64,000 nucleotides of DNA from Halobacteriales archaeon YIM A00010 (GTDB lineage Archaea > Halobacteriota > Halobacteria > Halobacteriales > Haloarculaceae). The stretch covers positions 1,736,001 through 1,800,000 of the forward strand of contig JAKCFJ010000001.1 in the NCBI GenBank assembly GCA_025041175.1. The letters are read 5' to 3'. The notes beneath the pieces were generated by a model. That model searched no databases. It was not told where the DNA came from and saw only the letters and a program-made list of their open reading frames with translations. Positions 30,643 through 33,272 of the stretch are shown here, piece after piece (position 1 is the stretch's first letter; each line of letters starts with the position of its first letter). The translations under genes were made by a program, and so were the position numbers.

Positions 30643-31617
30643 TTATCGTCGTCTGCGTGCGACGATCGCAACGAGTGCCACGGCCAACGCGAGGATCGTC
30701 AGCATGACCCCGAACCCGGGTCCGGATACGATGGTTCGCAGCCCGCTAGACCCGTCGTTCGATTCCTGTGTGTTCTCACCGATCTGGTTTTGATTTTGGC
30801 TTTGGGTTTGGCCGTTACTCCCCCCTTCACACGTTCCTGGTGAGATTTTGACCTCCTCGTACATGTTGAGAGCGTGGGCGTCTTCATTGCCCGACCGGAC
30901 GATCCAGCGCTCGACCTGATTCATCGTGCCCTCACCCTCCCAGGCCGGATACGGGTAGGATTCTGCCTCCTTGTTGAAACGCGGCTGGATGGTTATCTCA
31001 CCGTCCCAGTCGTCTGGATTGGCTCGGTAGACGCCGCCGTCGCTCCGACCACCGCCCCATCCCCAGGACGCTGACGTCATCGATTTGTTGAATGTGAAGG
31101 AGTCGTTCGCCCCAGCGTACCCGTCGTCTTTGACGGTCCAGCCACCGGTGACCGGCATCCCGCGCATCACTAGCGACACGGCACCGCCGCCCTCGGTTCG
31201 GTTCCCGGTGAATTTATCGTGGAGAAAGACCAGACTCAATCCACCGTTCCCCTCGTAGAAGAAAAACTGGCTCGTATCCTGTAGTTGCAGGTCGGTCGTT
31301 CCCCGAGAGCTGTATCCGTGTCCGTGTGTGCGGTAATCGTAGTACGAAACGACGTTATCTGATCCATTACCGATCGGTGTGATCGTATAACACGTATCGC
31401 CCTGTTTGACAGCGAACTTCTCCGACGCACTGTCGTTGTTGGCGCTGTCAGTCTGGGTACCGTTCTGTGCGTCCGCGATCGGTATCATGCTGATGCTCAT
31501 GGCTCCGACGGTCACCAACACCATCACGACAACCCCGATTTTCGCACCGAGGCGGAGCGTACGCTCGTACACCCCTGTCGATGTTGCGCTGTTTGTATCG
31601 TTGTACGGTCGGTTCAT
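30643..31617 (-). CDS. Secreted surface protein with PGF-CTERM sorting signal
   Basis: A 324-residue exported protein. Residues about 24-48 form a hydrophobic signal segment (IGVVVMVLVTVGAMSISMIP) ending at ADAQNGTQ. The mature part has a conserved GDTCYTITPIGNGS entry and a GTTDLQLQDTSQFFFYEG block. It ends with an Asn/Gln/Ser-rich linker and the tripartite PGF-CTERM tail: PGFG, a hydrophobic helix and RRRR at the very end. Archaeosortase A normally processes such tails and links the protein to lipid. The function of the mature domain is unknown. The hairpin array lies upstream of its 5' end. Confidence 0.85.
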   Translation of the reverse strand: MNRPYNDTNSATSTGVYERTLRLGAKIGVVVMVLVTVGAMSISMIPIADAQNGTQTDSANNDSASEKFAVKQGDTCYTITPIGNGSDNVVSYYDYRTHGHGYSSRGTTDLQLQDTSQFFFYEGNGGLSLVFLHDKFTGNRTEGGGAVSLVMRGMPVTGGWTVKDDGYAGANDSFTFNKSMTSASWGWGGGRSDGGVYRANPDDWDGEITIQPRFNKEAESYPYPAWEGEGTMNQVERWIVRSGNEDAHALNMYEEVKISPGTCEGGSNGQTQSQNQNQIGENTQESNDGSSGLRTIVSGPGFGVMLTILALAVALVAIVARRRR

Positions 31618-31841
31618 TGTTGGCAGTAACTGACCGCACAGCTACCTACGTAAGTATGATCGCGTTTCTCCCGGTAAATGACTGCCTACCCGTTCCATTC
31701 GGTGGATTCGATGATCCGGTTCGGTTTCTCCGTCGCGGGGGGATAGAGGGGATATCCGAAACCACCGGGTCGGCAGATCAATCTCGTTGTGGTGCGGTGT
31801 GAATTTGATTGGTTCAACGAGTACCACAGTCGGGTGACAGA

Positions 31842-32064
31842 GAGGCGCTACGCGCCTCAAGCAGTCGGACTCCGTCCGACGACGGCGAGGAACGAAGTTC
31901 CTCGGGAAACCGGCCGTAGGCCGGTGACATCACCAGACGTCTTTGATGTCTGGTTAGCAGCCAGAAGCCAGAGGCTTCTGGTGACACCCCTCGGGGGCAA
32001 GGGGAATCGAAATTTCCCATATCCAGCAAGTCGTTCGCGATTTTCGCGTCTCCGAGATTCTCGG
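31842..32064. repeat. Array of about ten consecutive non-identical hairpins with 3-nt loops
   Basis: Stem arms and loops, in order: GAGGCGC (31842-31858, loop TAC); GTCGGAC (31864-31880, loop TCC); CGAGGAAC (31886-31904, loop GAA); ACCGGCC (31909-31925, loop GTA); ACCAGACGTC (31932-31954, loop TTT, one G-T pair); CCAGAAGCC (31961-31981, loop AGA); CCCC (31987-31997, loop TCG); GGGAA (32002-32018, 7-nt loop); CGCGA (32036-32048, loop TTT); CCGAG (32052-32064, loop ATT). Each right arm is the reverse complement of its left arm. Spacers between the first seven hairpins are 4-6 bases, giving a pitch of about 22-27. Stem sequences differ, so structure rather than sequence repeats. The array lies between the 3' end of the Asp/Lys/His-repeat gene and the 5' end of the PGF-CTERM gene. 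No transposase is next to it. Confidence 0.85.
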
Positions 32065-32140
32065 TCTGTCCCTTCGATAGATGCACCTATTATTAAATAA
32101 TATATTTATAAATGGATGACAAAGAACGATACGGTCTCTA

Positions 32141-33106
32141 TCAGTCGTCAGGACATTTGTCCTTGTCGTGGTCTTTGTCCTTTCCGTGGTCCTTGTCGCG
32201 GTCTTTGTCTTTCCCGTCCTTGTCGTGGTCTTTGTCCTTTCCGTGGTCCTTGTCGCGGTCTTTGTCTTTCCCGTCCTTGTCGTGGTCTTTGTCCTTTCCG
32301 TGGTCCTTGTCGCGGTCTTTGTCCTTTCCGTGGTCTTTGTCGTGGTCTTTGTCCTTTCCGTGGTCCTTGTCGTGGTCTTTGTCCTTTCCGTGGTCCTTGT
32401 CGTGGTCTTTGTCCTTTCCGTGGTCCTTGTCGTCTTTACCGTCCTTGTCCTCATCGCGATCCATCTTGTTTGGATGGCAGACGCGGAACCAGCAGATTTC
32501 TTTTTTGCTGGGACAGGAGATCGTAGCACAGCACTGCTCGTCGTCCCTTTCAGCGAGAATCGGTTTTTGTTCCGTACAATGGTCGCAGTGGCCGTGCGAC
32601 ATTTCCCCTTTGTGATGGTCGTGATCCGTTCGTTTCTTTTCGTGTTTTCCGTGTTCTTTTTTGCGGGTGGCATACACGACAGCGAACGGGAAGGGGGCAC
32701 AGATCGTCACTTTCTGTTCGTCACCTTCAATCGAGAACACGTCCGGATCGACTTCCTTCCCGATGTCGTCGTACGTGTCGGGCCACCACTTTCCGTACTT
32801 GCGCGTGAACGCGATGTTGAGATCCTTCGGACACTTTCTCCTGTCGTCTTTACCGTCCTTGTCGCCTTTACCGTCTTTGTCCTTCCCGTTCTTCCCGTCT
32901 TTACCGTCCTTATCGCCGTTTCCGTCCTCGTCCTTGCCGTCCTTGTTCTTATCGTCCCTATCGTCGTCAGCACCGCCGCCATCGTTGCTGTCCGATGCAA
33001 CGGTAACGCCGGTTCCTACGGTACCGAGAGTAACCCCAGTTACGCCGAGTATCTTTACCAGATCTCTCCGCCCAATGCTATCGAGCTTCTTTTCGTCTTT
33101 GCTCAT
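32141..33106 (-). CDS. Tat-exported Asp/Lys/His-repeat protein with Cys/His core
   Basis: A 321-residue protein starting at [20 protein letters not shown]; the twin-Arg GRRDLVK plus hydrophobic core ([17 protein letters not shown]) is a Tat signal. An Asp/Lys/Gly-rich linker (about residues 45-90) follows. A globular part (about 90-225) contains many Cys and His: [36 protein letters not shown]. The last 90 residues are nearly pure [10 protein letters not shown]-type repeats. I do not recognise the core. The Cys/His content and the His/Asp-rich tail suggest metal binding, which is inference. ATG 33106 is chosen because the Tat motif then sits about 12 residues in; a longer frame to 33235 adds an unrelated basic leader. 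Confidence 0.75.
32155..32440. repeat. Coding tandem repeat (about 30-bp and 57-bp units)
   Basis: Imperfect tandem repeat inside the 3' end of the Tat-exported protein gene. The basic unit is 30 bases (encoding [10 protein letters not shown] on the minus strand), with a shortened variant that gives a 57-base higher-order period (19 residues). Identity between copies is very high, so copy number is probably unstable. It explains long spurious open frames on the plus strand. Confidence 0.85.
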
Positions 33107-33272
33107 GCTGCAACGTCTTCTGAGTGGCCGTTTCGATTTTGTTATGGAGCTCCTGCGAATCGTTTTTAATCGATAGGTATGTATTACGATCCGGATTACG
33201 ATATTTGGTGGCGATACCCGTACTATCGTTGTCAAATATGATCATTACCACCCAATCCACTACTGAAGTATT

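Follow-up and report, generated by a model that had tools for sequence, protein, structure and literature searches.

The window, a stretch of 64,000 nucleotides of haloarchaeal DNA, contains a dense run of short inverted repeats, and the question is what kind of element this run represents and whether it belongs to this locus alone. Two minus-strand open frames, 30643-31617 and 32141-33235, flank this run. Six successive hairpins with stems of 7-10 bp and loops of exactly 3 nt are located within 31842-31981 (31842-31858, 31864-31880, 31886-31904, 31909-31925, 31932-31954, and 31961-31981), and the spacers between them are, in order, 5, 5, 4, 6, and 6 nt long. The fifth hairpin includes one G-T pair, and the sixth has a stem of 9 bp, or of 10 bp with one G-T pair. 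Folding of 31800-32100 is 6.25 s.d. below dinucleotide shuffles, with -5.62 for the opposite strand. In the 64 kb, there are 13 perfect hairpins with a stem of at least 7 bp and a loop of 3 nt, five of them inside the 140-nt array, while shuffles of the whole 64 kb contain 3-10 in total. Coordinates, fold score, and hairpin counts against shuffles therefore bear out the six-hairpin array of the original prediction. That prediction had counted ten hairpins; its first six stand, but hairpins 7-10 are weaker and more imperfect than stated and form a decayed reverse module. The open frame at 32141-33235 (minus strand) encodes a long K-D-K-D-H-G/D repeat run that stems from an 18-bp tandem repeat at about 32156-32430, and it gave no Pfam match; its product is possibly a secreted charged-repeat protein.

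The array is composed of three plus-strand units followed by the decayed module. Unit 1 (31842-31881) consists of an opening hairpin of type A (31842-31858, GAGGCGC-tac-GCGCCTC), the spacer aagca, and a closing hairpin of type B (31864-31880, GTCGGAC-tcc-GTCCGAC). It corresponds to the match G000:C1:1767836-1767884 of our covariance model R1 (69.2 bits), and an identical 39-mer is present in locus L009. Unit 2 (31882-31925), preceded by the spacer gacgg, is built of an opening A hairpin (31886-31904, CGAGGAAC-gaa-GTTCCTCG), the spacer ggaa, and a closing B hairpin (31909-31925, ACCGGCC-gta-GGCCGGT), and is the R1 match G000:C1:1767881-1767929 (59.7 bits). Unit 3 (31926-31986) starts with the spacer gacatc and continues with an opening hairpin of type C (31932-31954, ACCAGACGTC-ttt-GATGTCTGGT), the spacer tagcag, a closing hairpin of type D (31961-31981, CCAGAAGCC-aga-GGCTTCTGG), and tGACA; this C-tagca-D type recurs in L009, L011, L014, L025, and L028. 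The tail (31987-32081, minus strand) is a relative of the module GCAAATCGC..GCGATTTGC-tggatac-GGGAAATC..GATTTCCC. It aligns with this module in reverse with a local alignment score of 53 (shuffled maximum, 25), and hairpins 7-10 are thus explained as its decayed remnants. Intact or near-intact relatives of the tail module are found in L131, L075, and L087. No reason was found to think that the window array itself is translated.

A BLAST search of the source genome (5.97 Mb, seven contigs) with the array identified 67 places on four contigs, and model R1, on which the genome-wide copy counts rest, gave 111 matches at E<=0.1. Reading of 20 and then 51 more loci of this genome provided a common grammar, [H1]-(n)nGCA-[H2]-GAYA, in which a unit is made up of two hairpins: an opening hairpin (H1, 7-10 bp with a 3-nt loop), a spacer ending in GCA, a closing hairpin, and then GACA or GATA. 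Opening hairpins are of type A (GAGGCGC, GAGGAAC, GAGACGC and others) or C (ACCAGANNNC, ACCGAGC), and closing hairpins are of type B (GTCGGAC, ACCGGCC and others) or D (GCCAGAAGCC and others). The stem sequences had been regarded as unrelated, which holds inside the window array but not genome-wide, where each stem falls into a recurrent type. Units are usually 45 bp long and sometimes 51 or 57 bp, all multiples of three; A-B units have 45 bp, and those with 10-bp stems have 51 or 57 bp. Arrays contain one to about five units, and several (L024, L051, L058, and L074) have the order A-A-B-B, which would fit the insertion of one unit into the central spacer of another. Most loops are GNA or TNC with a closing C-G pair. 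This is the sequence of unusually stable DNA mini-hairpins, which are stable in single-stranded form. Closing hairpins in the named loci have GNA loops in 60 cases and TNC loops in 12, and because oriented counts are skewed in this way, frequent loop inversion was rejected as the source of both loop orientations.

Two further observations concern hairpins in the same genome. L048 and L081, on contigs C1 and C2, share a four-hairpin C-D array whose adjoining flanks also match, which suggests a segmental duplication carrying an array. Other families of modules with 3-nt loops and different spacers occur in L011, L014, L017, L075, L080, and L020 (1250-1482), for instance CGAAACGGC-tgatct-CGCAAGAGC-gacctc-GCGGAGG-tcagtga-CGAAAATC and ACGAGACGC-aacgtc-GCCGGAACTC; these lie outside model R1, and the total hairpin load therefore exceeds the present count.

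The element is distributed across one order. Model R1 was positive in 50 of 59 relatives, with up to 52 matches each. In a survey of 295 genomes of the phylum, the 43 positive genomes all belonged to the order of the window, which was represented by about 53 genomes, and the approximately 240 genomes outside this order gave no R1 match. When about 85,000 species genomes were scanned with a pattern, 91 stretches were found; among the 80 matches listed, all were from Halobacteria, including Halorubrum, Halolamina, Halorientalis, Natrinema, Halorussus, Halomicrobium, and Haloferax prahovense. Viral contigs searched with the unit pattern and phage records searched with the array gave no match, a plasmid search gave three short matches, and a tRNA scan found none. 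Because of the recurrence at dozens of loci, many of them within coding sequence, the proposal that the array is a unique non-coding RNA or a feature of the 3' UTR of one gene fails.

Many copies are located in genes. In the source genome, 18 arrays were placed within strong open frames or at their ends. Of these, 14 have sense orientation in the frame GAC|AGC|GAG, three are in sense in another frame (L009, L026, and L068), and one is antisense (L078). Hosts confirmed by Pfam are PEP carboxylase, GH3 beta-glucosidase, an amine/FAD oxidoreductase, a P-type ATPase, PEP synthase, V-ATPase subunit I, acyl-CoA ligase, an MR/MLE enolase, MaoC, and CofC. In named haloarchaea, 40 of 85 matches were intragenic by codon score, and all 40 were in sense and in one shared frame, encoding the peptide DSE[G/A/E]xxxSG[S/N]RTQS[G/D]. 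Their hosts include ValRS, MutS, porphobilinogen deaminase, adenylosuccinate synthetase, a pyridine nucleotide-disulphide oxidoreductase, and beta-CASP, ABC, and aldo-keto reductase proteins. The unit has no stop codons in coding copies and adds about 15 amino acids per unit, and the frames of insert-bearing host genes stay open. Insert length was divisible by three in all 19 intragenic arrays and in 20 of the 24 intergenic ones. Since multiples of three also prevail between genes, the element is frame-compatible in itself, and selection on host genes is not the sole cause. Conserved protein-coding sequence in homologues had been named as the observation that would count against a structural element; this is partly the case, as homologous copies are predicted to be translated in frame within other proteins, but their pairing is kept too.

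In most genes compared, same-genus orthologues lack the insert. The filled and empty orthologues of a MenC-like gene differ by exactly 15 residues, SEEQRSSGNRTQSGD, and an AlphaFold model of the protein, of moderate quality (mean pLDDT 62.8, from an alignment of five sequences), does no more than locate the insert between a strand and a helix. In the beta-glucosidase gene, the empty site has the sequence GGCGACAGTGAGGG or GGAGACAGCGAGGG, and GACAG flanks the array on both sides where the site is filled. At L063, L073, L078, and L088, filled sites carry GATA on their left side and GAT on their right. The repeats at array ends are short and imperfect, and their agreement would fit a short duplication or microhomology. 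MITEs have the terminal inverted repeats of a parental insertion sequence plus a target-site duplication; the arrays end in a short direct repeat of GAC type, and neither shared terminal inverted repeats nor a parental IS was found. The empty sites could in part be losses. At the corresponding site in CofC, the array of G003 has mismatched stems, which indicates that old copies decay.

Covariation across homologues had been named beforehand as support for a structure, and it was found. In 28 units, 99.5% of pair cells were standard, with 74 double changes against two one-sided changes and G-U in 2 of 392 pairs; these units had been selected for pairing, which biases this first count. An unbiased test used 85 matches from other haloarchaea, obtained with a pattern leaving three stem pairs free. 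Watson-Crick pairs filled 249 of 255 cells and G-T one of 255, and all three free pairs matched in 80 of the 85 units, against 28 after shuffling, although shared ancestry persists in the shuffle. Stem covariation is thus almost exclusively from Watson-Crick to Watson-Crick, and the near absence of G-T intermediates leads us to favour a DNA-level or self-templated process over selection on RNA. The repeated property is the fold rather than the sequence, as originally predicted. A beta-CASP gene carries a unit at one and the same site in five species of several genera, where the stems have GTG, GTA, or GGA at the free positions and are each fully paired; one mismatch interrupts the copy L173. 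Of the four fully paired stems with a T in the named set, three belong to this site. By this pattern, inheritance with compensated change in place is favoured over independent insertion, and same-site matches across genera could reflect slow inheritance rather than active movement.

Together with these data, we consider, with a probability of roughly 0.78, that the window array is an intergenic copy, with three two-hairpin units and a decayed fourth module, of a dispersed, non-autonomous haloarchaeal palindromic element. Its units would spread selfishly by being copied into new sites that carry a short GAC or nnCAG match to the element's own spacer, and this match would be duplicated upon insertion. 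Copies would persist by adding a short hydrophilic peptide that leaves the host gene unbroken. The hairpins are probably recognised by the mobilising machinery as single-stranded DNA, and the complementarity of their arms is probably renewed through self-templated (quasi-palindrome) correction, a step suggested by the missing G-T intermediates and the compensated changes at one orthologous site. The stronger claim of a self-correcting mobile palindrome, which is clade-wide, stop-free, independent of HUH transposases, in frame in core genes, and kept in its arms by self-templated replication, is a tentative one that we hold to be rather less probable than its negation.

The closest alternative is that a Y1 (HUH) transposase moves the element in trans and that the element is REP/BIME-like or derived from IS200/IS605; its spacers (on the other strand, TGTC/TGCY tags 5' of each hairpin) would act as the guide tetranucleotide. 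Short hairpins with a constant tag on one side of each, GNA/TNC loops closed by C-G, and four Y1_Tnp genes in the source genome speak for it, but these four genes have no flanking A-B units and the tags differ from the known REP tags GTAG or CGTC. Furthermore, G037, G052, and G056 have no Y1_Tnp gene and yet 36, 38, and 13 array matches, whereas G042 has four Y1_Tnp genes and zero matches. Y1/RAYT transposase was rejected as the mobiliser since it does not co-occur with arrays, and the trans-mobilised reading is unlikely. The suggestion of a decayed TnpB/omega-RNA scaffold found no support: no Rfam match exceeded the gathering score, no tnpA or tnpB adjoins the window array, and the presence of IS200/IS605-type Y1 transposase is unrelated to array copy number. 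Hairpin pairs with other stem types do occur inside or beside transposon genes, namely TCGCAAATC-gga-GATTTGCGA gca GTAAATC-ttc-GATTTAC gaca and AGCGAATC-tac-GATTCGCT gacca TTGGAAATC-ttc-GATTTCCAA, in L131 at about 1801-1873 (an IS200/IS605-type tnpA) and in L130 at about 1060-1093; transposases are therefore themselves hit, and the tnpA frame remains open. A paralogous family of genes of about 207 aa (LYHSIDVGEGLWCRPCQSTGCAHATQIEQILATAGLG...), with about ten copies of roughly 72-85% DNA identity, was also considered (L009 1136-1756, minus strand; L053 775-1398, plus strand; L014, L022, L039, L042, L056, L059, L061, and L071). Each copy is followed by a region rich in hairpins and A/T runs, and positions 1-60 of the window (GGGTGAGC-tcc-GCTCACCC, then gagcggaaaaaagg) are the end of such a region accompanying the paralogue in L056. 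The gene was set aside as a carrier because it has no Pfam or NCBIfam match, is absent from the plasmid collection, and is missing from most arrays. Neither the comparison of Y1 presence with copy number nor this neighbour gene revealed a mobilising gene.

A conserved structured RNA, either an mRNA element or a small RNA with hairpins serving as processing or regulatory sites, would account for the strong predicted folding, the covariation, and the compensated changes at an orthologous site. It is improbable nonetheless, as there are hardly any G-U pairs (2/392 and 1/255), unlike in typical structural RNAs, the contexts are unrelated (intergenic, coding, and both strands), old copies decay, and the Rfam search gave nothing above the gathering score. 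Slightly less probable still is a protein-level repeat, in which selection favours the 15-residue peptide DSExxxxSG[S/N]RTQS[G/D] as a linker and its codons give rise to the palindromes incidentally. One frame common to 40/40 internal matches in named genomes and a peptide recognisable across genes agree with this idea, but DNA-level stem covariation alters the residues (GTG/GTA/GGA gives VRC, VRR, and GRS), many copies lie between genes or use a different frame (L009, L026, and L068), sister orthologues presumably work without the peptide, and the data suggest that perfect hairpins are equally frequent in intergenic and coding copies of the same age. High GC raises the background of short inverted repeats, so that a chance origin in a GC-rich intergenic stretch was considered; it is refuted, with a negligible probability, by hairpin counts far above shuffles, the same grammar at dozens of loci, and covariation across genomes.

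The dispersed palindromic element preferred here is filed as a protein-coding palindromic element that differs from known ones in multi-hairpin grammar, in clade-wide spread, and probably in sequence. The palindromic elements of Rickettsia and Wolbachia are short palindromes of intergenic and coding sequence; in conserved proteins they keep the frame and are tolerated by the host gene, and their mobilising enzyme is likewise not known (PMC2229807, PMC3733652). The haloarchaeal element resembles them as a palindromic repeat dispersed over intergenic and intragenic positions, with in-frame insertions into conserved proteins whose orthologues lack them. However, RPEs have 105-146 bp and one long stem-loop with terminal inverted repeats (PMC2229807), whereas the archaeal unit has two separate 7-10 bp hairpins with 3-nt loops in 45-57 bp, often in tandem; in size and structure it is therefore not an RPE proper. 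The Methanocaldococcus jannaschii elements of Suyama et al. 2005, as cited in PMC2996958 and PMC2229807, are coding-capable palindromic repeats of an archaeon that are fused into protein genes. Methanocaldococcus jannaschii is of a different clade, in another phylum, and the survey of the window's own phylum was positive only in the order of the window.

REP, BIME, and REPIN sequences share short tagged hairpins that are dispersed and clustered. REPs are mainly extragenic, with some inside genes, carry GTAG or CGTC tags, and commonly contain G-T pairs (PMC3733652). The haloarchaeal tags are instead GACA/GATA and nGCA, G-T pairs are nearly absent, and the element is present without any Y1 transposase; since both the tag and the transposase tests failed, it is not a REP. 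PARCEL repeats are also tandem and protein-coding with DNA dyad symmetry, but they have imperfect dyads and form 75-nt units of repeat proteins, and their authors found none in archaea (PMC2996958), while the haloarchaeal 45-nt hydrophilic insert interrupts unrelated enzymes. CRISPR arrays have identical repeats and unique spacers; here the hairpins differ and the spacers are constant. The original view that the array follows no CRISPR, terminator, or known REP pattern and is an undescribed element was upheld, and no haloarchaeal description was found in the open-access literature, most subscription papers being beyond the search.

In the accessible literature, in-frame palindromic inserts are otherwise described from intracellular bacteria and one methanogen. 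An order-wide archaeal family with empty and filled orthologues, a clear grammar, and covarying stems would make intragenic movement and survival testable in genetically tractable haloarchaea. If the self-correcting reading is true, copies would evolve by concerted double substitutions and so give rise to new protein segments. The element accounts for insertions of about 15 residues in many haloarchaeal enzymes and may serve as a system for measuring palindrome self-correction.
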